DNA of 64,000 nt from assembly GCA_019753155.1 (NCBI GenBank), contig JAIELG010000032.1, forward strand, positions 1 to 64,000, in the 5' to 3' direction. The notes beneath the pieces are model-generated. The model saw nothing but the letters and a program-made list of their open reading frames with translations. It was not told where the DNA came from and did not search any database. How positions within the stretch are numbered: the first letter of the stretch is position 1; each line of letters begins with the position of its first letter. Position numbers and translations under genes: made by a program. Shown one piece after another: positions 19,678-32,046 of the stretch. The DNA comes from Burkholderiales bacterium. GTDB taxonomy: Bacteria > Pseudomonadota > Gammaproteobacteria > Burkholderiales > JABEVD01.

Positions 19678-22600
19678 CTAATTCGTCACCGAAGTCGTGT
19701 TGAATTGGGCCAGCCATTTGGGCACCTCGTCGGCCGACATCGGCCTCGCTATGCCGTAGCCCTGGCCGAAATCGCATCCGAGGCGCACGAGCAGCATGCC
19801 GTGTTCCGAAGTTTCCACGCCTTCGGCGATGACCATCTTGCTGAAAATCCGGGCGAGGCCGATGACGCCTTCGATGATGGAGAGATCCTCCATGTTTTCC
19901 TTCATGTCGTGAACGAAGCTCTTGTCGACCTTGACCGTATCGACGGGAAGGCGTTTCAGGTAGGCGAGCGAGGAGTAGCCGGTCCCGAAATCGTCCAGGG
20001 AGAATGAAACGCCTATTTGCTGGCAGGCGATCATCGTTTCCCTGACCCGGTCCAGATCGTCGAGCGCGGCGGTTTCCAGAATTTCGAATTCGAGCCGCGT
20101 GGGCGGAACGCTAGGGTATCGCACCAGGACTTCCTTGAGTCTTTCGACGAAACTGGAATGTTTCAGCTGGCTCGCCGAGATATTCACGCTTACCGGGAAG
20201 TCGAGACCGATTTCGATCCAGTTTGCCATCTGCCGTACTGCCTCTTCCAGTATCCAGTCCCCGATTTTGATGATCAAGTCGCTCTGTTCGGCAAGCGGCA
20301 GGAAAGAGACGGGGCCGATGAGCCCTTCCTCGGGATGCTGCCACCTGATGAGCGCCTCCAGCCCGATCACTTTTCCTGTTTTCAGGTTGATTTTCGGCTG
20401 GTAATGGAGTGCGAGCTGATGCCCTTCGAGGGCGAGACGGAGCTTGGAAAGTTTCTCCTGCCTTGCCCGCAACTCCATGTCGAGCTTCGAATCGAACCAC
20501 TGGAAGCGATTTCTTCCGGACTGCTTGGCGAGATACATCGCCTGATCCGCATGCCGCAGCAGGGTGTCGGCATCCGAGCGGTCGAACGGATAAACGGTGA
20601 CACCTATGCTGGCCGAGATGCGCATGACGAACGAATCGACCTGGTAGGGTGAGGAAAGATCAAGCAACAAGCGGTTGAGCATGAGTTCGACATCGGCCAT
20701 ATCCTTGATGCCGCTCAGAAGCATGACAAATTCATCCCCTCCCAGTCTTGCGATGCTGTCTTCTCCCCTGAGCGCCCTTTTCAGACGCTTTGCGACTTCG
20801 ATCAGGAGCCTGTCCCCGGTTTCGTGCCCATGCTGGTCGTTGACCGGCTTGAAGTCGTCGAGATCGAGGAATGCGAGCGCGAAGATGCGCCCGTTGCGAT
20901 CGGCCTGAAGAATGGCTTTCCTGAGGTCTTCCGCCAGCAGGGTGCGGTTGGGAAGGTTGGTGAGGGGGTCGAAGTGGGCAAGATTTTCGAGCCGCTTTTC
21001 GGTATCCTTCATGTCGGTGATGTTGCCGAATACCGAGACATAATGCGTGAGTTCGCCCTGTTCGTTTCTGACTGCGGAAATGTTGAGCAGGGTGGCGAAC
21101 GGTGTGCCATCCTTGCGCTTGCCCCAGAGTTCCCCCCTCCAGCTTCCCGTTGTTTCTATCGCATGGAGGATGCGACCCTGCGCATTGTCGTCCTGCAGGC
21201 CGGCAAGGAAGCATCGCGGTTCCTTGCCAATCAATTCCTCGCGGGAATACCCCGTCATCTCGGAAAAGGATCTGTTGGCATTGATGATCCGGTTTTCCTC
21301 GTCGGTGATCAAAATGCCTTCCCTGGTGTTTTCGAAAACGCTTCCATTGAGGCGCCATTCTTCTTCGACCCGCCTGCGGTCGCTGATGTCTTCGAAAATA
21401 GTGAGCACTCCGGCTACCTTGCCATCGTGGCCATGCATGGGCAGCTTGCTCATCCTGATCCAGATCTGCCTGCCATCCGGAAGCAACAGGGGTTCGACGC
21501 TATCGAGCATCGAACTATCGTTTTCCATGACGAAGCGGTCTTTCCCGAGGAGCGCAGTTTCCCAGGGCAGGTCGGTTCTGCCGATGATCTCGTCCATCCC
21601 GTCGAACCCGGCCAGTCTGGCGAAATTCCTGTTGCAGCCCAGAAAAACCGAGCCAAGATCCCTCCAGAAGACGAAATGCGGAATGTTTTCCAGGATGAAA
21701 CGAAGCTTGTGATCCGATTTCAGGAGCCTCCTTTCGGATTCCTGTACGGTTTCGAGTTCACAAAGGAGGCGGGATACATCCTGTAGTGCGATAGCCTTCA
21801 TTTTTTCGCAGTAGGCGTGACGCATGGCGCAGAGGCAGGCGTTCTCGAGACTGGCAAGCGTCGGGGAGAGCGCGAGGATCATGTCGTCGGGCAACGGGGC
21901 ATTGCTTCTCAAAACCAGAACCCCGGTTTTTCCGATAGGGAAAAGATGAAAAATTGCGGAATTTTCCGTGATGATTTCCGCGTGCGGCGGGATGAGCTTC
22001 CCGATTTTTTCCGCGAGTTTGGGGTAAGCCGCAATACGCTCGAACTCCTTCGCCGGGTAACTGTAGCGGTGGATGAGTTCTTCGCCGGAAAGCTCGTCGC
22101 GCAGCCAGATATGGCCGCTGCCGCAATTGAGCAGCTTGAGCGCCGGGGAAAGAAACTGGCGCAGGATCTCGATGAACTTGGGATCCTGCCTGACCAGCGT
22201 TGCGAGCGCATATTGCGTCGATACTGCGCTGTGATGCGGCGGAGCGTTTTTTCCTCTGGGGAGGCCCAATACGATGCTGTTGTTGAACAAGGTGAGGCGG
22301 CCATTGTCGTCGCTGGCGATCTCTCCCAGCGTCAACGCGCCGAATGGATCCCCGAATTGCGCAAATGAGTCGGCAATTTCGCCGACTTCGTCAGCGAATC
22401 TTTCCTGAAGGAATTGATTCCGATTGGTGCAGCTGAAAACGATGGGGCGTGATTCGGTATGTTTGGAAGGAAACTTTTCGATCAGTTTTTTCGATGCTTT
22501 TTTCGATGCGTCGATCAGGTTTTCGGGCTCTGCCTTCAGAATGCAAAGCGGGGTCAGACAGGGAATGCCTGCCTTGCAGACGAGTGTTCTGCCTTCCCTG

Positions 22601-23415
22601 GTAAAGGACTCGCAAACGAAAGCCTCGTTTTTTTCCATCCCGATGGGAAAGCTTCTGGCTATTTCAGAAAAATCCTCCCCGTTCCGATTCGGGGGCGCAT
22701 CGACGATTTCGCAAAATAAATCGAAGAAGCCGGAACTTCTGGACTCGGTTTTTACGATTTCGAGATAAACATCGAGGGCAGGCTTGTAGTCGAGGCTCCT
22801 GATGACTTCGCCCTGGGCTTCCGTGACGAGAAGCGGACCGGCGAATTTTTGCCAGCCATGGGATACCTCGATCTCACTCGAATAGGGGATGCCTACAAGT
22901 TGCGCCTGATCCTGGACGAGTCCCTGGTTGCTGAAGATGCAGGGCTTGCGGACAAGGTCCTGCGATCCCGCGCCGCCGCCCATATATTTCGTTTCAGCCC
23001 CGAGACGGTCGTAAACGTCATCCAGGAAGGAATGGATGCCTCTGGATGCGCCATCGACGAAGACGAGTACGGTAGGACATGAAGTGAGCGCATCGGCAAA
23101 GGGGGAGACCGAGTCCGAAAAATCCATTTCAGGCGCGTTCAACCCGGTGATATGCGCCACTTTGGCTTCGAACGGAAAGGATACGACGAGAGAACCTTTG
23201 TCGTAATTTTTTCTCCCGAAAATGACGCCGGGGAATATGCCGCCTGAAACAGGCACGGAAAGGATCCGCAGACTGGAATCCAGAAGTCCCGGCGTGAATC
23301 CGTTTTTTTCACAGGCGAACAGCAGGAGACTTTTTGCGCCTTCCTTTATGGCCGATTCGATGTTTCCCAGGAAAGTCGGGAGATCGCCTGCAGGATCGAA
23401 CTTGACGTTTTTCAT
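19678..23415 (-). CDS. FIST-PAS-PAS-GGDEF-EAL cyclic-di-GMP signalling protein
   Basis: Predicted 1245 aa from the ATG at 23415, chosen because the FIST domain begins just after it; no clear RBS is seen, and the frame is open upstream to a TTG at 23541. Domains in order: FIST N and C small-ligand sensor (about 10-390, with GGGAGSQD), a coiled/GAF-like stretch, PAS (about 580-690), PAS (about 705-815), GGDEF (intact RLGGDEFVML) and EAL (intact LEALIRW near 1019, DDFGTGYSS, EGVET). Both catalytic motifs are complete, so it could make or break c-di-GMP. No membrane helix: cytoplasmic sensor. Divergent from the cyclase at 23679. Confidence 0.9.
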   Translation of the reverse strand: MKNVKFDPAGDLPTFLGNIESAIKEGAKSLLLFACEKNGFTPGLLDSSLRILSVPVSGGIFPGVIFGRKNYDKGSLVVSFPFEAKVAHITGLNAPEMDFSDSVSPFADALTSCPTVLVFVDGASRGIHSFLDDVYDRLGAETKYMGGGAGSQDLVRKPCIFSNQGLVQDQAQLVGIPYSSEIEVSHGWQKFAGPLLVTEAQGEVIRSLDYKPALDVYLEIVKTESRSSGFFDLFCEIVDAPPNRNGEDFSEIARSFPIGMEKNEAFVCESFTREGRTLVCKAGIPCLTPLCILKAEPENLIDASKKASKKLIEKFPSKHTESRPIVFSCTNRNQFLQERFADEVGEIADSFAQFGDPFGALTLGEIASDDNGRLTLFNNSIVLGLPRGKNAPPHHSAVSTQYALATLVRQDPKFIEILRQFLSPALKLLNCGSGHIWLRDELSGEELIHRYSYPAKEFERIAAYPKLAEKIGKLIPPHAEIITENSAIFHLFPIGKTGVLVLRSNAPLPDDMILALSPTLASLENACLCAMRHAYCEKMKAIALQDVSRLLCELETVQESERRLLKSDHKLRFILENIPHFVFWRDLGSVFLGCNRNFARLAGFDGMDEIIGRTDLPWETALLGKDRFVMENDSSMLDSVEPLLLPDGRQIWIRMSKLPMHGHDGKVAGVLTIFEDISDRRRVEEEWRLNGSVFENTREGILITDEENRIINANRSFSEMTGYSREELIGKEPRCFLAGLQDDNAQGRILHAIETTGSWRGELWGKRKDGTPFATLLNISAVRNEQGELTHYVSVFGNITDMKDTEKRLENLAHFDPLTNLPNRTLLAEDLRKAILQADRNGRIFALAFLDLDDFKPVNDQHGHETGDRLLIEVAKRLKRALRGEDSIARLGGDEFVMLLSGIKDMADVELMLNRLLLDLSSPYQVDSFVMRISASIGVTVYPFDRSDADTLLRHADQAMYLAKQSGRNRFQWFDSKLDMELRARQEKLSKLRLALEGHQLALHYQPKINLKTGKVIGLEALIRWQHPEEGLIGPVSFLPLAEQSDLIIKIGDWILEEAVRQMANWIEIGLDFPVSVNISASQLKHSSFVERLKEVLVRYPSVPPTRLEFEILETAALDDLDRVRETMIACQQIGVSFSLDDFGTGYSSLAYLKRLPVDTVKVDKSFVHDMKENMEDLSIIEGVIGLARIFSKMVIAEGVETSEHGMLLVRLGCDFGQGYGIARPMSADEVPKWLAQFNTTSVTN

Positions 23416-23678
23416 GGCTACGGACGCACGAAGCCGTGGCGCGAGATCGCATTGCGGATTACTGAATTTTCGAAAACAAATGCAGTCATCAGAGTCTTTC
23501 AGCAGCAAGGTTTCGGAGTTCGACCCGCGCGGGCGGGGCAAGAGCGTTACGATGCAAGAATCGGGCCGATTGTAAATTTTTGTTATAAAACATCGGTATA
23601 TGTTATTATAATTGGAGCCATTATACTACTTGTGTAAAAAAAACCGACATCAAATGGATGGCGCTGGGGGAGGGGGAT

Positions 23679-24590
23679 ATGGGTTATTGTCCGGCAGTCG
23701 ACGAATTTTGTGCGAAGAGCGATTCAACGCTGATCCAATCGATCATCGATGCGCTCCCGGTTCCGATTTTCGTCAAGGATTCGAAGGGCCTTTATGTGTA
23801 CTGCAATACGCCTTTCGAGAAATATGTCGGGAAAAAAGTGCACGAGATCGAGGGGAAAAGCGTATTCGATCTCTGGGATCACGATCTTGCGAAGGTCTAT
23901 TTCGAGGCCGACAACAGGCTGTTCGGCTCCGGAGGGGAGCAGCAGTACGAGGCAAGGGTGAAGTATGCGGACGGATCCATACATGATGTCATCTTCCACA
24001 AGGCTGTTTTCAGTTCAATGGATGAGCGCTATATGGCTGGCGCCATCCTGGATATCACCGCGAGAAAGCTTGCCGAAAGGGAAATCGAAAGGATTGCGTT
24101 GACGGACACCCTGACCGGCGCCGCCAGTCGATACCATCTTTATGCCGCGTTGGAGCATGCCTGCAAGAAGGCCGCGCGGCAGAATTGTTCGATCGCCCTG
24201 ATGAGCATCGATCTCGACGGGTTCAAGGAGATCAACGACACTTACGGACATCTCGTGGGGGATGATGCGCTCGTCAATGCGGTCAAACGCATCAGGCAAT
24301 GCATACGGGAATCGGATACGCTGGCAAGGTTGGGCGGGGACGAATTCGTGATTGTTTTCGAGGGACTGGAGCACAGGGACTCGATTTTCCGTCTTGCCGA
24401 AGCCATACTGACATGCCTCTCCGGGGGCATGGAGTTGCAGGGGAACCCGGTGCGCATGGGGGCGAGCATAGGCATCGCGTTCTATCCCGATCATGGCAAA
24501 GCGCCCCAGGAGCTGCTCAGGCGTGCCGACCTTGCGCTGTACGAATCGAAGCTGGCCGGAAAGGTGTGTTACCGCACAGCTGCTTCTTGA
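23679..24590 (+). CDS. PAS-GGDEF diguanylate cyclase
   Basis: Predicted 303 aa. The ATG at 23679 follows GGGGGAGGGGG; an earlier in-frame ATG at 23658 has none. PAS domain (about 20-135, DALPVPIFVKDSKGLYVYCNTPF) then GGDEF (about 145-300) with DLDGFKEINDTYGH and intact RLGGDEFVIV. The usual RxxD inhibitory site before GGDEF is not evident. Shares an AT-rich divergent promoter region (23575-23640) with the FIST-GGDEF-EAL gene. Confidence 0.9.
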   Translation: MGYCPAVDEFCAKSDSTLIQSIIDALPVPIFVKDSKGLYVYCNTPFEKYVGKKVHEIEGKSVFDLWDHDLAKVYFEADNRLFGSGGEQQYEARVKYADGSIHDVIFHKAVFSSMDERYMAGAILDITARKLAEREIERIALTDTLTGAASRYHLYAALEHACKKAARQNCSIALMSIDLDGFKEINDTYGHLVGDDALVNAVKRIRQCIRESDTLARLGGDEFVIVFEGLEHRDSIFRLAEAILTCLSGGMELQGNPVRMGASIGIAFYPDHGKAPQELLRRADLALYESKLAGKVCYRTAAS

Positions 24591-25329: not shown

Positions 25330-25608
25330 ATGCAGGCAACGATAGGATTTGAAGGTAAACATGCCGCCTTGGCATCAAGCGCGGAGATTTCGGCGGGCAT
25401 CGATGCTGCAGACAAGGTGTTTTCAATGCGCAATGCGCGGTTTTCCGATTGCGCGGCTGCGAACGAAAAGCTTGAAAGAGGCGAATTGCTCAGCCGCGAG
25501 GAAGCCCTGCTGTGCCTGGTATGGGACGAAGCGGAAGAAGCGGCTTTTCACGCCATCACCCTGGGCTGGTTGAGCCGGGATGTCGACATCAGGCTGTCCG
25601 CACGTTGA
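25330..25608 (+). CDS. Hypothetical protein in the selO operon
   Basis: Predicted 92 aa, ATG with GAGGAG upstream. Acidic, helical, with two cysteines (SDCAAAN, LLCLVWDEAEEAAFH). No domain recognised. Its stop lies 2 nt before the selO ATG, so co-translation with SelO is likely. Confidence 0.65.
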   Translation: MQATIGFEGKHAALASSAEISAGIDAADKVFSMRNARFSDCAAANEKLERGELLSREEALLCLVWDEAEEAAFHAITLGWLSRDVDIRLSAR

Positions 25609-25610
25609 AC

Positions 25611-27059
25611 ATGCCGGTTCGGCTCGAGGCCCGCTTCGCGGGGCTGAAATTCTGTCATGCGCAAGTTTTGCCGACTCCCCTGCCGGAGCCGCGCATGGTT
25701 CATTTCAACGCAGGGCTTGCACAGGAACTCGGTTTCGATGGGGCGAATGATGCGCTTCTGGAAATCCTTTCCGGCAACCGGCCATGGCCGGGTTATACGC
25801 CGCTCGCATCGGTGTATGCCGGGCACCAGTTCGGTTCGTGGGTTTCCCAACTTGGGGATGGGCGCGCCCTGTTGATCGCGGAAATCGCAAAGCCCGATGG
25901 CGCAAGGGTGGAACTCCAGCTCAAGGGCTCGGGCCGGACGCCTTATTCCAGGGGCGCCGACGGGCGCGCGGTATTGCGCTCGTCGATCCGCGAATACCTG
26001 TGTTCGGAAGCGATGCATGCCCTGAATGTCCCGACCACGCGCTGCCTGAGCCTGGTTTCTTCCCCCCATCCCGTCATGCGGGAGAGACAGGAGACTGCGG
26101 CTGTGGTTTGCCGCGTATCCCCCAGTTTCGTGCGCTTCGGGCATTTCGAATTTTTCAGCCACGAAAAGGAAGCGCTTGCCCTCCTTGCGGACCATGTCAT
26201 ATCCGAGCATTTTTCCCATATCGAAGGGGAGAGTCGCTACCGGAGCTGGCTCCTGGAGGTGGTCGAGCGCACGGCAAAGCTGATGGCGCGCTGGCAATCC
26301 CTGGGGTTTTGCCACGGCGTCATGAATACCGACAATTTCTCCATCCTCGGGCTGACCCTGGATTACGGCCCGTTCGGCTTCATGGACGCATTCAGGCTGC
26401 ACCATGTCTGCAATCATTCGGACTACGAAGGACGTTATGCCTACGGAGCGCAGCCCGAGATCGGGCTGTGGAATGTCTCCCGTTTGCTGCAGGCAGCGCT
26501 GCCGCTGCTGTCGGAGAGCGATGACGAGGCTGCTGAAATGGCCTCGGAAATTTATGGAAGCTATGCGCCCGTATTTTCGGCCGAGGCGTTGCGGCTGTGG
26601 ACGCTGAAACTCGGGCTGCGCGATGTCAGGGAGGGGGATGCCGCGCTCGTCGGGCGCTTCCTCGATCTGCTGCAATCGGGAAGGCTGGATTTTACAAGAG
26701 GCTTTCGCAATCTGTCCAGGGTGGGGATTTCAAACGCTCTGCCGGACGAAGTGCGCAATGAATTTGCAGGAACGAAAGGCTTCGATGCATGGCTGACGGA
26801 CTATCGGTCGCGTCTTTCGATAGAGGGGAGGATCGACGCCGAGCGCGCCGCCTGCATGAACCGGGTCAATCCGAAATATGTGTTGCGGAACCACCTCGCA
26901 CAGGGCGCGATCGAGAAAGCCGAAGCGGGAGATTATTCCGAAATCGAAACATTGATGCGCCTTCTCTCCAGCCCTTTCGACGAGCAGCCCGGAATGGAAA
27001 GCTACGCCCATCCCCCTCCCGAGGCGCTGCGCCATATCGAGGTCGGTTGCTCTTCGTAG
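25611..27059 (+). CDS. selO: Protein adenylyltransferase SelO (YdiU/UPF0061)
   Basis: Predicted 482 aa, the usual family length; the ATG at 25611 lies 2 nt after the previous stop, and the longer open frame is a shadow of that gene. Pseudokinase fold with VYAGHQFG, QLKGSGRTPYSRGADGRAVLR, the NTDNFS catalytic loop and DYGPFGFMD. The C-terminus GCSS places Cys480 where human SelO carries selenocysteine and where E. coli YdiU has a redox-active Cys. Transfers AMP from ATP to Ser/Thr/Tyr of redox proteins. Ends directly against the convergent GGDEF-EAL gene. Confidence 0.96.
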   Translation: MPVRLEARFAGLKFCHAQVLPTPLPEPRMVHFNAGLAQELGFDGANDALLEILSGNRPWPGYTPLASVYAGHQFGSWVSQLGDGRALLIAEIAKPDGARVELQLKGSGRTPYSRGADGRAVLRSSIREYLCSEAMHALNVPTTRCLSLVSSPHPVMRERQETAAVVCRVSPSFVRFGHFEFFSHEKEALALLADHVISEHFSHIEGESRYRSWLLEVVERTAKLMARWQSLGFCHGVMNTDNFSILGLTLDYGPFGFMDAFRLHHVCNHSDYEGRYAYGAQPEIGLWNVSRLLQAALPLLSESDDEAAEMASEIYGSYAPVFSAEALRLWTLKLGLRDVREGDAALVGRFLDLLQSGRLDFTRGFRNLSRVGISNALPDEVRNEFAGTKGFDAWLTDYRSRLSIEGRIDAERAACMNRVNPKYVLRNHLAQGAIEKAEAGDYSEIETLMRLLSSPFDEQPGMESYAHPPPEALRHIEVGCSS

Positions 27060-29243
27060 TCAGGGGTTTCCTAACTGCATTTCAGGCATCGGTGCGCCGA
27101 GATAGTAACCCTGGGCGTACTCGACCCCCATATCCTGAAGCGCCTGCAGGATCTCTTTCGATTCGACATATTCGGCCACGACCAGTATTCCCAGATCCTG
27201 GCACAGTCGGCTCAGATTGCGCACCAGGGTATAATCGATCTTCGAATGCAGGATGTTCCTGACGAATTCTCCATCCATTTTCACGAAATCGAACTGGAGT
27301 TCGCGCAGGTAATGGAATGAATTGTAGCCGCTGCCGAAATCGTCCAGGGCGAAAGAGAATCCTTTCTTCCTCAATTCCGTGAGGAATTTCCTCATGTTCG
27401 TCATGTCGCCTATGGCGTCCCGCTCCAGGATTTCGAAAACCAGGCTTCTCGGAGGTATGTCAAGATCGCTGCAAAACTGTTCCGCAAAACCGAGCACCCC
27501 CCGCCCCTGGATTTCCTGTGCGGAGAGGTTGATGAATAACCTGGGAACACCCTGTTTCAGCGCCATCTTTTCCTTCAGCAGGCTCAGGGATTTGCGGATG
27601 ATGACTCTGTCGAGTTCCCTGCCGAGGCCGTATTTTTCTATCGTTTCGATGAACATTCCGGCCGACACGGCAGCTTCCCCCGGCTCGCAAAGCCGGGCCA
27701 GCGTTTCATGGGCGAAAATCTTGCCCGTCCTGCAGTCGAAAATGGGCTGGAAGAAAGGAGTGATATGGTCTTTCTTCAATGAATTGCGCAATATCTCCGC
27801 ATTGATCCTGTTGGAACGGTTGGCTTGGATTTCCTGTTCCAGGGCTTCCATTTGCCCGATGGAATCTTTCCCCATTGCCTTGGCGCGATACAGTCCGAGA
27901 TCCACGACGGCCATCAGGTCCGAAGCATTTTGCGCATCCTGCGGGTAAGTGACGATGCCTATCGAAGTCGTGATATGGAAATGCGCGCCATTCGTGTCTT
28001 CGAAAATGGTGTCGCGCAGTTGCGTCCTCAGCTTTTCCGCGACGGCGATGCCGCCTTCCTTTCCCGTTTCGGTGAGAATGATCGCAAATTCGTCGCCCCC
28101 GATGCGGGTTGCGAGATCGCCCTTGCGCATCGCCGAACGAACGGTTTCCGCCACACCCTTCAAAACCCCATCGCCGCAGGGATGACCGTAGGTATCGTTG
28201 ACATCCTTGAAATCGTCCAGATCGAGCATGAGCACGATGAATTCATGGTTGTGACGTTCGGAACGCCCGATCTCGTAATCGAGCATGTCGGTGAAATAAT
28301 GGCGGTTGTAAAGTCCCGTCAAGGGATCGTGGGATGAGTAATATTCGAGTTCGGACATGGTCCGGTTCAAGGCTTTGCTCGAACCCACCACCATCACCAT
28401 GACCGCGAGAATCGAGCGGATCACGCTTTCCTCCTGGGGGACCAGGTGTTTGATCGATCCGAATGCGATCCCGAGCAGCCCTGCCAATTTGAGCGTATCC
28501 ATCTCCGGGACGGATACCGTGATCATCTTGATATCTCCAAGCGTCTCGCATCCGGCCGAGACCGGGATTTGGAACTCCTCGATATCCATGAACGCATCCT
28601 GGGGAAGATTGAGCTGTCCGACCATTTCGCGCGTGAGGTTCATTCTTACCTGGGATTTGATTTCATCCGAATAGTCGCCGAGGTAATAGACGTAAAGCAG
28701 AAGACTGTTGTTTTCCTTGAATGCAATGAAGAAGAAGTTGAATGGAAAGATGTCATGGAAATCGACAAGGATTTGCTGCACAAAAGTTTTCCATTGGGAA
28801 ACTTTTTCGTAGGAGAGAATGATGTTCTCGAGCACATGGCTCTGCCTTTCGAAAAGATCCTTTTCGATCAGGGTCCCCGCCAGGGTTTCGACGGTATCCT
28901 TGAAGTCGAGCATGATCCGTTTCAGATGTTCGCTGCTTTCGTGCCATTGCTGATCGCGGTTTTTCAGCAGGATCGAAAGGGAAGCGTTGAGCCGGCAGGA
29001 GCGCGCAATTTCATTTTGCAGGCGCCCGCCTATCCCGTTCTTTTCCGCTTCGCTCAGGCTGGAGCTTTCCAGTTGACGGATGCTGGCTTGCAGGTTTTCG
29101 CCGATCTCGGAATTGACGTTCTGGACCAGATCCCCCATGTTGCTTGTGGCAAGCCGGGTATGGGTCTGGCCTTCCAGCAAGGCTGCGAAACGCAACAGAA
29201 CCTGCTGGCGCAGGGCTTCGAGATTCCGGGGAACCAGGCTCAT
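27060..29243 (-). CDS. GGDEF-EAL protein translationally coupled to a di-iron ODP sensor
   Basis: Predicted 727 aa. The ATG at 29243 shares its first base with the stop of the ODP gene (TGATG). An N-terminal helical and GAF-like region (about 1-270, no membrane helix) precedes GGDEF (about 280-440, DLDDFKDVNDTYGH and intact RIGGDEFAIIL) and EAL (about 465-725). The EAL signature reads ETL, with the metal-binding Glu kept, and DDFGSGYNSF is present, so phosphodiesterase activity is possible. The coupling to the ODP gene suggests that the sensor feeds this enzyme; inference. Confidence 0.9.
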   Translation of the reverse strand: MSLVPRNLEALRQQVLLRFAALLEGQTHTRLATSNMGDLVQNVNSEIGENLQASIRQLESSSLSEAEKNGIGGRLQNEIARSCRLNASLSILLKNRDQQWHESSEHLKRIMLDFKDTVETLAGTLIEKDLFERQSHVLENIILSYEKVSQWKTFVQQILVDFHDIFPFNFFFIAFKENNSLLLYVYYLGDYSDEIKSQVRMNLTREMVGQLNLPQDAFMDIEEFQIPVSAGCETLGDIKMITVSVPEMDTLKLAGLLGIAFGSIKHLVPQEESVIRSILAVMVMVVGSSKALNRTMSELEYYSSHDPLTGLYNRHYFTDMLDYEIGRSERHNHEFIVLMLDLDDFKDVNDTYGHPCGDGVLKGVAETVRSAMRKGDLATRIGGDEFAIILTETGKEGGIAVAEKLRTQLRDTIFEDTNGAHFHITTSIGIVTYPQDAQNASDLMAVVDLGLYRAKAMGKDSIGQMEALEQEIQANRSNRINAEILRNSLKKDHITPFFQPIFDCRTGKIFAHETLARLCEPGEAAVSAGMFIETIEKYGLGRELDRVIIRKSLSLLKEKMALKQGVPRLFINLSAQEIQGRGVLGFAEQFCSDLDIPPRSLVFEILERDAIGDMTNMRKFLTELRKKGFSFALDDFGSGYNSFHYLRELQFDFVKMDGEFVRNILHSKIDYTLVRNLSRLCQDLGILVVAEYVESKEILQALQDMGVEYAQGYYLGAPMPEMQLGNP

Positions 29244-30019
29244 CAGGCCCCCTCGCGGAAATGGCCGCTTTCGGTCATGAGGTCGATGCCGCATTGCAAT
29301 TCCCTGAACCAGATCAGGAAATCCTTCACTGCCTGGCCCCGGTATACAGGGCCATGCTGCGGGGCGATGAGATGGATATCCAGCTTCGAAACCGCATCGA
29401 CCCATATTTTCGCCGCCTTGTTCGAGCACATGTAGCGGCGATGAAAGCCTTCGATATAGGGCAGGTGCGCGCTGAAATCGTCCACGAAGGCATAATCCCG
29501 GTCCGGCGGCAGCATGGCGGCACCTATGTCGCCGGTGAACAGGATTCTGGATGCGGGGTCGTAAACATTGATTTGCCCTTCGGAGTGCAGGAAGTGTGCC
29601 GGAACGAGCTGCAAATCGAATCCGGGGCAGATTTCGAGCGGCAATCCTGCGTCGGGCACCCCGACGAATCGCTTCATTCTTTCCCCCAGAATACCGTAGT
29701 GCGGCAGAAAGCGCATCCAGATGCGGGATACATATACCGGTGCGCCCGTGATCTCCAGCCATGTCGAAATGCCGCCGACTATATCGGGATCCTGATGGGA
29801 AAGGATGATCCCCTTCAGCTTGTCCGGCCCGATATAACGCAGCATCTCCGCCAACACGCGGGGCATTACGCCGAACCCGCCGGGGTCGAGCAGTACGCCG
29901 CAATCGTCGTGCAGAACCAGATACTGATTGGACCTTATTCCGTCTTCTTCCCCCGGCTCGCTTTCGTTCAGCAGTATGAACTTATGGCTTTCGCTGCCAT
30001 ACAGTACGACATTGCGCAT
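29243..30019 (-). CDS. Oxygen-binding di-iron protein (ODP), flavodiiron-type beta-lactamase fold
   Basis: Predicted 258 aa with no flavodoxin domain. Ligands by alignment to flavodiiron proteins: His75, Asp77 (in place of Glu) and Asp79 in SHQDPD; His145 in AHFLHSEG; Asp164 in FTGDIGA; His222 in APQHGP. The sixth position is Ile80 rather than His. This HxDxD pattern is the one seen in ODPs, which Treponema uses as oxygen/iron sensors in chemotaxis. A redox enzyme is less likely since no electron-donor domain is present. Its stop overlaps the start of the GGDEF-EAL gene by one base. Confidence 0.82.
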   Translation of the reverse strand: MRNVVLYGSESHKFILLNESEPGEEDGIRSNQYLVLHDDCGVLLDPGGFGVMPRVLAEMLRYIGPDKLKGIILSHQDPDIVGGISTWLEITGAPVYVSRIWMRFLPHYGILGERMKRFVGVPDAGLPLEICPGFDLQLVPAHFLHSEGQINVYDPASRILFTGDIGAAMLPPDRDYAFVDDFSAHLPYIEGFHRRYMCSNKAAKIWVDAVSKLDIHLIAPQHGPVYRGQAVKDFLIWFRELQCGIDLMTESGHFREGA

Positions 30020-30177: not shown

Positions 30178-32046
30178 ATGGGCAAAAAATCCAACCTCGC
30201 AACGCTCTCGCTCGCAGCCCTGGGAATAGTCTACGGCGATATAGGGACCAGCCCGCTTTATACGCTGAACACGATTTTTACCGCAGGATTGCATCCCGTT
30301 CCGTTGAATCAGGAAAACATCCTGGGCATTCTTTCCCTGATTTTCTGGTCGCTGATGATCGTCGTATCCTTCAAGTACGTTGCGTTCATCATGCATGCCG
30401 ACAACCGGGGGGAAGGCGGGATCATGGCGCTGCTGGCCCTGGTCCTCGGCAAGCTCGGCAATAATGAAAAACGCCGAGCGGTAATCCTGATGCTGGGCAT
30501 ATTCGGCACGGCCCTGTTTTACGGGGATGGCGTCATCACGCCGGCCATTTCCGTCCTGTCCGCAGTGGAAGGGTTGCAGGTGGCAAGTCCGATGTTCAAG
30601 AGCTATGTCATCCCGATCACGCTTGCGATCCTGTTCGGCCTGTTTTTTTTCCAGCGCAAGGGCACTGCCGGCGTCGGCGCCCTGTTTGGCCCCGTCATGT
30701 GCCTCTGGTTTTCGGTCCTGATGCTGCTCGGCATCATGAACATCCTGACTGAGCCGCTGGTATTCAATGCGCTCAACCCCATGCGCGGCATCCTTTTTCT
30801 GGTCGGGAATCCCTGGCTCGGCTTTCTTTCCCTGGGCGGAGTCGTCCTGGCGCTGACGGGCGCGGAAGCGCTTTACGCGGATATGGGGCATTTCGGAAGG
30901 CACCCCATACAGCTTGCCTGGTTCGCTTTCGTCATGCCTGCCCTGGTGCTCAATTATTTCGGGCAGGGCGCGTTGCTGATTCACAATCCGAAAGCGATCG
31001 AAAACCCGTTCTTCCTGCTTGCGCCGAATTGGGCGCTCTATCCGCTCGTCATTCTTTCCACCATCGCGACCGTGATCGCTTCCCAGGCAGTCATTTCCGG
31101 AGCGTTCTCGATGACGAGCCAGGCGATGCGGCTGGGTTACTCCCCCAGGATGGAGACCCAGCACACGTCCGAGGAGGAAATCGGGCAGATTTATGTGCCG
31201 GGGATCAACTGGACCCTGATGGTGGCCGTGACCGCGCTGGTCCTGGGATTCAGGTCTTCCACGAGCCTTGCTTCGGCTTACGGCATCGCCGTGACCGGAA
31301 CCATGGTCGTGACGACCATACTGGCTTTCATCGTCGTTCGCAGGTTGTGGGGATGGGGGCGGATCAGGGGAGGGTTGCTGATTATCTTTCTTCTGATTGT
31401 CGACATGGGTTTTTTCAGCGCCAACCTGATCAAGATAGAGGAAGGAGGATGGTTTCCCCTGACATTCGGCTTGGGCATATTCATCCTGATGACCACATGG
31501 AAGCGTGGCAGGGTGCTTTTGGGCGAGCGCATGAAACGCGATTCGATCGATCTCGCGCCCTTCGTGGCAGCGCTGGTCCCGGATTCGGTCGTCAGGGTGC
31601 CGGGGACGGCCATTTTCCTGACGGCCAATCCGGACGGCGTGCCGCATGCGCTCCTGCACAACATGAAACACAACAAGGTGCTGCATGACAGGGTGGTGAT
31701 CCTGACCCTGCGCGTGCTGGATATCCCGCATGTTTCGCCCGATGAGCGCATCGAGTATAAATCCCTGCCCAACAGCTTCCACAGCATCATCGTGCGGTTT
31801 GGCTTCAAGGACGAGCCGAATCTGCCGAAGGCGCTGGCTTCCCAGCAATATCTGGCCCTGGAGCCGATGGAAACGTCCTACTTCCTCTCGCGGGAAACGC
31901 TCATCCCGAAGGCCGGCTCCAGGGAGATGGCATTGTGGCGGGAGAAGCTGTTTGTCGCCATGTTCCGCAATGCAGGCAGCGCGGTCACTTTTTTCAGCCT
32001 CCCCCCCAATCGCGTGGTCGAGGTCGGCGCCCAGATCGTGCTGTAG
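30178..32046 (+). CDS. kup: Potassium uptake protein Kup
   Basis: Predicted 622 aa, normal for Kup/Trk-independent low-affinity K+/H+ symporters. About twelve membrane helices (1-430) starting with LAALGIVYGDIGTSPLYT, then a cytoplasmic C-terminal domain (about 440-622). Convergent with pepN (4 nt apart). A TATAAT at 30078-30083 lies upstream without a good -35. Confidence 0.97.
   Translation: MGKKSNLATLSLAALGIVYGDIGTSPLYTLNTIFTAGLHPVPLNQENILGILSLIFWSLMIVVSFKYVAFIMHADNRGEGGIMALLALVLGKLGNNEKRRAVILMLGIFGTALFYGDGVITPAISVLSAVEGLQVASPMFKSYVIPITLAILFGLFFFQRKGTAGVGALFGPVMCLWFSVLMLLGIMNILTEPLVFNALNPMRGILFLVGNPWLGFLSLGGVVLALTGAEALYADMGHFGRHPIQLAWFAFVMPALVLNYFGQGALLIHNPKAIENPFFLLAPNWALYPLVILSTIATVIASQAVISGAFSMTSQAMRLGYSPRMETQHTSEEEIGQIYVPGINWTLMVAVTALVLGFRSSTSLASAYGIAVTGTMVVTTILAFIVVRRLWGWGRIRGGLLIIFLLIVDMGFFSANLIKIEEGGWFPLTFGLGIFILMTTWKRGRVLLGERMKRDSIDLAPFVAALVPDSVVRVPGTAIFLTANPDGVPHALLHNMKHNKVLHDRVVILTLRVLDIPHVSPDERIEYKSLPNSFHSIIVRFGFKDEPNLPKALASQQYLALEPMETSYFLSRETLIPKAGSREMALWREKLFVAMFRNAGSAVTFFSLPPNRVVEVGAQIVL

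Follow-up and report, generated by a model that had tools for sequence, protein, structure and literature searches.

The window analysed here, a 64,000-nucleotide stretch of DNA from a Burkholderiales bacterium, carries on its minus strand a free-standing two-gene unit in which an ODP, a di-iron sensor protein, is coupled to a GGDEF-EAL c-di-GMP enzyme. This coupling is strongly supported by the gene adjacency, the overlap of the two reading frames, phylogeny, a duplicated pair in the same genome, gene fusions, and the oxygen-sensor neighbours of the pair in Ferrovum. The ODP gene (29243..30019, 258 aa) begins with the ATG at 30019-30017 and stops with the TGA at 29245-29243, and the partner gene (27060..29243, 727 aa) begins with the ATG at 29243-29241 and ends at 27060. 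The stop of the former and the start of the latter overlap in TGATG (29241..29245) with one base in common, as the original prediction had stated, an arrangement that would couple their translation.

The unit is flanked upstream by a divergent gene (30178-32046, plus strand), which we take to encode a Kup-like potassium transporter, and downstream by a convergent gene (25512-27059, plus strand), presumably SelO/YdiU-like. The region around the pair is rich in c-di-GMP genes, with a PAS-GGDEF-like gene (23658-24590, plus strand) and a GGDEF gene in a 1287-aa open reading frame (19678-23541, minus strand) both lying within 10 kb. The genome as a whole contains 35 GGDEF regions, 7 PilZ matches, and a heme-copper oxidase subunit.

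The 258-aa protein is a true ODP, with a stand-alone metallo-beta-lactamase fold. It matched Pfam PF19583 (ODP) with an E value of 6.2e-71 (238.7 bits, cut-off 27.2), and only ODP and Lactamase_B-type matches were obtained in the Pfam search, with no second domain, confirming the predicted absence of a flavodoxin domain. A phmmer search against the PDB returned two solved ODPs as the best matches (6qrq, E = 1.9e-80; 6qnm, E = 1.8e-75), with the flavodiiron proteins far behind. Moreover, the Gallionella orthologue at locus L051 is 82% identical to this ODP, and its AF2 model superposed on the solved ODPs in their apo, zinc, and peroxo-diiron forms with a TM of about 0.9 (0.91-0.92 and an rmsd of about 1.7-2 Å for the best chains), the value for the peroxo-diiron Treponema ODP (6r9n) being 0.92.

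The metal site is equally well preserved. The ligands H75-x-D77-x-D79 (HQDPD, 29783..29797), H142 and H145 in HFLH (29585..29596), of which H145 is a metal ligand position, the bridging aspartate D164 (29528..29530), and Q221-H222 in PQHG (29354..29359), the ODP-type last ligand motif, are all encoded on the minus strand and were invariant in 81 of 81 orthologues. The HxDxD pattern was also invariant in a second alignment of 16 diverse ODPs. Directly after it, residue 80 is an isoleucine (I80), at the position held by the sixth-ligand histidine in flavodiiron proteins. The HxDxD pattern and the five of six ligand positions originally read from the sequence were thus verified, with H75/D77/D79, H145, D164, and H222 kept and I80 at the sixth. 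Assignment as a flavodiiron protein was ruled out, as the C-terminal flavodoxin domain is absent, the ligand set is of the ODP type, and the flavodiiron set is incomplete. According to a review, ODPs swap one motif-2 histidine for a glutamine in motif 5, and the glutamine in the PQHG-type motif of the T. maritima ODP has been reported as an unusual ligand (PMC7785958). The motif-5 glutamine of the review matches Q221 of the ODP described here.

Judged by its residues, the partner is an intact cyclase with I-site and phosphodiesterase residues and is predicted to be a bifunctional c-di-GMP enzyme. Pfam placed the GGDEF domain at aa 304-460 (27858..28352, minus strand; E = 5e-47) and the EAL domain at aa 483-718 (27090..27797, minus strand; E = 7e-65), in accordance with the identity first proposed. 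In 80 of 80 aligned partners, there was no change in the GGDEF motif, in the inhibitory RxxD site, or in the Mg/GTP residues. The EAL domain holds the full phosphodiesterase residue set (E513, N572, E604, E607, D634, D635, K655, E691, and Q711), and the corresponding positions (ExL, N, ExxE, DDFG, K, E, and Q) were kept in all 75-76 sequences covering that part, the leucine of ExL being replaced by V or I in 8 of them.

In front of the catalytic domains, the AF2 model showed two long helices over roughly the first 160 residues, followed by an alpha/beta region with the topology a-b-b-a-b-b-b-a (pLDDT 70). We divided this part into a helical region (aa 1-125; 28869..29243, minus strand), the proposed ODP-docking domain, which had no Pfam or PDB match, and a connecting helix with the alpha/beta, possibly GAF-like, region (aa 126-297; 28353..28868, minus strand). 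Across partners, the helical region was the least conserved part (mean identity 36%), and the connecting helix (aa 126-160) was near-invariant (78%). The search of aa 1-297 against Pfam gave nothing credible, the search of the N-terminus against PDB sequences gave one chance match (E = 6.4), and Foldseek of the alpha/beta part against the PDB gave no significant match (best E = 0.06), with GAF structures among the insignificant ones. The GAF-like N-terminus of the original prediction is therefore a fair guess for the alpha/beta region, with which the modelled topology is compatible but for which neither Pfam, PDB sequences, nor a significant fold match spoke. It is also half of the story, because the helical region in front, which that prediction had passed over, tracks with the ODP.

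The conservation of the gene pair, a check suggested along with the original prediction, was assessed by scanning about 85,000 species genomes with the ODP alignment as query and taking the best 80 ODP loci. In 79 of these 80 loci, the gene directly 3' of the ODP lies on its strand and encodes a GGDEF protein that shares the N-terminal region of the partner, and in the sole exception the contig ends at the ODP gene, so that the adjacency expected in other genomes was found in 79/79 informative loci. The partner start fell about -10 to +13 nt from the ODP stop in nearly all orthologous loci, with junctions of ATGA, TGATG, or short gaps in practically all. The pair is spread over many beta- and gammaproteobacterial genera, including Gallionella, Sideroxydans, Ferrovum, Zoogloea, Azoarcus, Rhodoferax, Curvibacter, Methylotenera, Methylobacter, Methylomonas, Methylotuvimicrobium, and Methylocaldum, as well as Legionella norrlandica. 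Relatives of the ODP on plasmid records were at most about 43% identical, outside the range of the partner-bearing clade.

Chance adjacency and conserved synteny of a longer block were both considered and rejected. Assuming about 2600 genes, and with the 35 GGDEF regions of this genome, a random gene would be directly followed by a same-strand GGDEF gene in <1% of cases, against the 79/79 observed in relatives that are not statistically independent. The flanking genes differ between lineages, and the commonest flanking gene family was present in only 16/80 loci.

In evenly drawn samples of the class and the phylum, the full-length partner N-terminal region was confined to a few genomes. In the class sample, the ODP was present in 73 of 369 genomes, and all four copies of the full-length partner N-terminal region adjoined an ODP; in the phylum sample (399 genomes), the same held for 5/5 copies, three of them from a family absent among the class relatives, and each of the two counts includes the two copies of the genome studied here. 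In the ODP tree, the partner-bearing ODPs formed a single clade with a support of 0.987. One member alone is unlabelled (L140), and it sits at a contig end. The chemotaxis type was rejected for this ODP, as its partner is a GGDEF-EAL protein instead of an MCP, and the MCP-coupled (chemoreceptor-coupled) ODPs fell outside the clade. Furthermore, the distance matrices of ODP and partner agreed closely (Mantel r 0.82; shuffles ≤0.08). At the sequence level, this agreement and the adjacency indicate co-inheritance, a pattern in which binding and co-regulation are not separable. The second pair of the same genome (L204, contig C1) has an ODP that is 78% identical and an N-terminal region that is 58% identical to those in the window. 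Ahead of this pair lie genes for a histidine kinase of the PAS/HWE type and an ANTAR-domain response regulator, and behind it one for a short PAS protein.

The distribution of partner segments suggested which part meets the ODP. Full-length N-terminal regions away from an ODP were not found in the class sample, the phylum sample, or the best 80 loci. Eleven weaker matches, to other proteins of the class, comprised the alpha/beta part only (from profile positions of about 67-130 to 285); these relatives carry GGDEF-EAL too, and 0/11 lay beside an ODP. Conversely, the L. norrlandica partner (L127:5995-7659), encoded behind its ODP, is a 293-aa protein that consists of the helical region and GGDEF, without the alpha/beta and EAL parts. 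This minimal pair lies near glmM-like and tpiA-like genes. Because an ODP lay beside every full-length copy found and beside no alpha/beta-only relative, and because Legionella keeps helical region plus GGDEF, the ODP probably docks on the helical region. In the three alpha/beta-only relatives that were inspected (L199, L200, and L201), the alpha/beta-GGDEF-EAL core is shared with the partner in the window but the N-terminus differs and contains a CxxCH (heme c-like) motif, which looks like a swap of the N-terminal sensor.

Two further analyses addressed the contact between the proteins. L051, whose two genes lie in one frame, was modelled by AF2 as a read-through fusion with Gly in place of the stop; the individual domains came out well, but no interface was predicted with confidence (pTM 0.52). 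The partial correlation with ODP distances was only slightly higher for the helical region (0.23) than for the other domains (0.09-0.19), and co-variation of distances by domain thus did not convincingly single out a docking region.

The link between ODP and cyclase appears to exist in more than one form. Single-chain ODP::GGDEF fusions were found in other gammaproteobacterial genomes (L189:3682-5760, L190:2910-4715, and L196:180-1979), and in L198:2879-5196 an ODP gene overlaps a following PAS-PAS-GGDEF gene. Like the pair in the window, the fusions join an ODP domain to GGDEF in a single device; unlike it, they are single chains with a much more divergent ODP domain and no EAL, and a helical docking region was not detected in these three. 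In Ferrovum and close MAGs (L065, L066, L069, and L072; e.g. L065:3249-10577), a gene for a protoglobin-PAS-histidine kinase comes next and overlaps the pair by 8 nt. Where the upstream side of these loci is covered, the ODP is preceded by another GGDEF-EAL protein, which matches protoglobin weakly, below the cut-off. Elsewhere, PAS-chemoreceptors (Aer-like) directly adjoin the pair (L053, L063, L078, L081, L117, and others), and these neighbours suggest a possible link of the pair to aerotaxis. An ODP of another type (L134, L144, L167, and L178) lies between a gene for an MCP-like helical protein of ~200 aa and a CheR-like methyltransferase gene; of about 60 ODP loci sampled from the class, 21 carried the MCP-like gene upstream of the ODP.

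We consider it likely that an O2/Fe(II)-responsive ODP acts in trans as the sensor subunit of a bifunctional GGDEF-EAL enzyme and resets c-di-GMP. The ODPs of T. denticola and T. maritima are di-iron proteins that bind O2, change conformation, and signal via a chemoreceptor (PMC6978683 among the sources). By the proposed mechanism, the two genes would yield one signalling unit in which the ODP, like its solved relatives, would load two irons and then O2, change its conformation, and so report the supply of oxygen and Fe(II). As a separate subunit, it would dock on the N-terminal helical region of the partner, and the signal would pass through the connecting helix (aa 126-160) and the alpha/beta region to the GGDEF and EAL domains. 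The balance of cyclase and phosphodiesterase would then reset cellular c-di-GMP, the level of which could be read by PilZ-type effectors. We infer the physical contact between ODP and partner, the response to O2/Fe, the sign of the effect, and the direct oxygen control of c-di-GMP suggested in the original prediction. A census table marks VcBhr-DGC, a hemerythrin cyclase, as O2-negative and contains globin cyclases of both signs (PMC8846402). From the former entry we would guess, with low confidence, that the deoxy (diferrous) ODP favours c-di-GMP synthesis and that the peroxo state lowers it.

The same two-protein device might respond to a signal other than O2, with the ODP reading nitric oxide, the redox state, or how much Fe(II) is available. 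ODP has been described as a sensor of both iron and O2 (TREND paper; PMC6978683), many of the carriers bear the names of iron oxidisers (Gallionella, Sideroxydans, and Ferrovum), the hemerythrin phosphodiesterase of Ferrovum PN-J185 is controlled by redox rather than by an O2 adduct (PMC8846402), and di-iron sites of the flavodiiron lineage react with Fe(II), redox, and nitric oxide signals too. However, the metal ligands are those found in ODPs whose crystal structures show peroxo adducts, globin-type O2 sensors adjoin the pair in Ferrovum, and methanotrophs and Zoogloea are also carriers, a range that fits O2 no worse than iron. We regard such a signal as rather unlikely, although clearly less so than either of the two explanations that follow.

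Its fold, which is mostly enzymatic, and its flavodiiron relatives, which are O2/NO reductases, could mean that the ODP is itself an enzyme (O2/NO-scavenging or a hydrolytic member of the metallo-beta-lactamase fold) that is merely co-expressed with the partner and exerts no direct regulation; both kinds of protein were among the structure matches. This appears highly improbable, given that the protein has no flavodoxin or other electron-donor domain, that its nearest solved relatives are dedicated sensors, that one ODP clade is paired one-to-one with one partner architecture, and that ODP::GGDEF fusions exist. It is just as improbable that the partner senses by its own alpha/beta (GAF-like) region and that the ODP sets only localisation or stability. 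GGDEF-EAL relatives with the alpha/beta part and a CxxCH-containing N-terminal region exist without an ODP, so the alpha/beta cassette works without an ODP too, but the Legionella partner has lost this region and still has its ODP, and full-length N-termini were never seen away from one. Regulation of the enzyme by an oxygen-responsive ODP accordingly remains the preferred explanation.

Both the sensor family and the output family were known, and it was likewise known that ODPs share operons with signalling genes or are fused to them (TREND paper). What appears to be new from the sequences is the well-conserved coupling and the proposed helical docking region. A 2022 census of c-di-GMP stimuli covers heme PAS, protoglobin, hemerythrin, flavin-PAS, and disulfide sensors for O2/redox, and ODP is absent from it (PMC8846402). 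No experimental work on an ODP together with a c-di-GMP enzyme came up in our literature search, and a prior listing in the tables of the primary ODP paper is possible. On balance, we favour the view that the pair represents a new O2 input to c-di-GMP, in which a detachable di-iron ODP plugs via a helical docking region into a GGDEF-EAL enzyme whose core is elsewhere CxxCH-driven. Its conservation in dozens of aquatic iron- or methane-oxidising bacteria probably reflects an oxygen-controlled lifestyle switch. If so, ODP would be a general oxygen- and iron-sensing subunit that serves several outputs, from chemoreceptors and bare cyclases to bifunctional c-di-GMP enzymes. It may then be the means by which methanotrophs and micro-oxic iron oxidisers choose between attached and swimming life. 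The pair appears small and tractable, and it is present in cultured Methylotuvimicrobium buryatense 5G, Zoogloea, and Curvibacter gracilis, which makes these proposals directly testable.

Among the closest known systems are the chemotaxis ODPs (T. denticola TDE2498, 6qnm/6r9n; T. maritima 6qrq/6qwo), with the same fold (TM 0.91-0.92), about 44-50% identity in structural alignment, and the same ligand motifs. They are likewise separate sensor subunits whose gene order links them to a signalling protein, but their output is a chemoreceptor, whereas the ODP described here belongs to a separate clade and overlaps translationally with a GGDEF-EAL c-di-GMP enzyme. The flavodiiron proteins (ROO, FprA, and flavorubredoxin) share a homologous di-iron metallo-beta-lactamase domain; in contrast to them, this ODP has no flavodoxin/FMN domain, has one canonical histidine replaced (I80), and would be a sensor, not a reductase. 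The hemerythrin c-di-GMP enzymes (V. cholerae Bhr-DGC and Ferrovum Bhr-HD-GYP; PMC8846402) also place c-di-GMP turnover under a non-heme di-iron site, although with a different helical fold that is fused in cis, compared with the metallo-beta-lactamase fold, separate subunit, and bifunctional GGDEF-EAL protein of the present pair. Finally, the heme O2-sensing enzymes (E. coli DosC/DosP and the globin-coupled sensors) have the same O2 input and c-di-GMP output as proposed here, which they achieve with a heme globin or PAS domain in cis, whereas the pair in the window would do so with a non-heme di-iron protein in trans.
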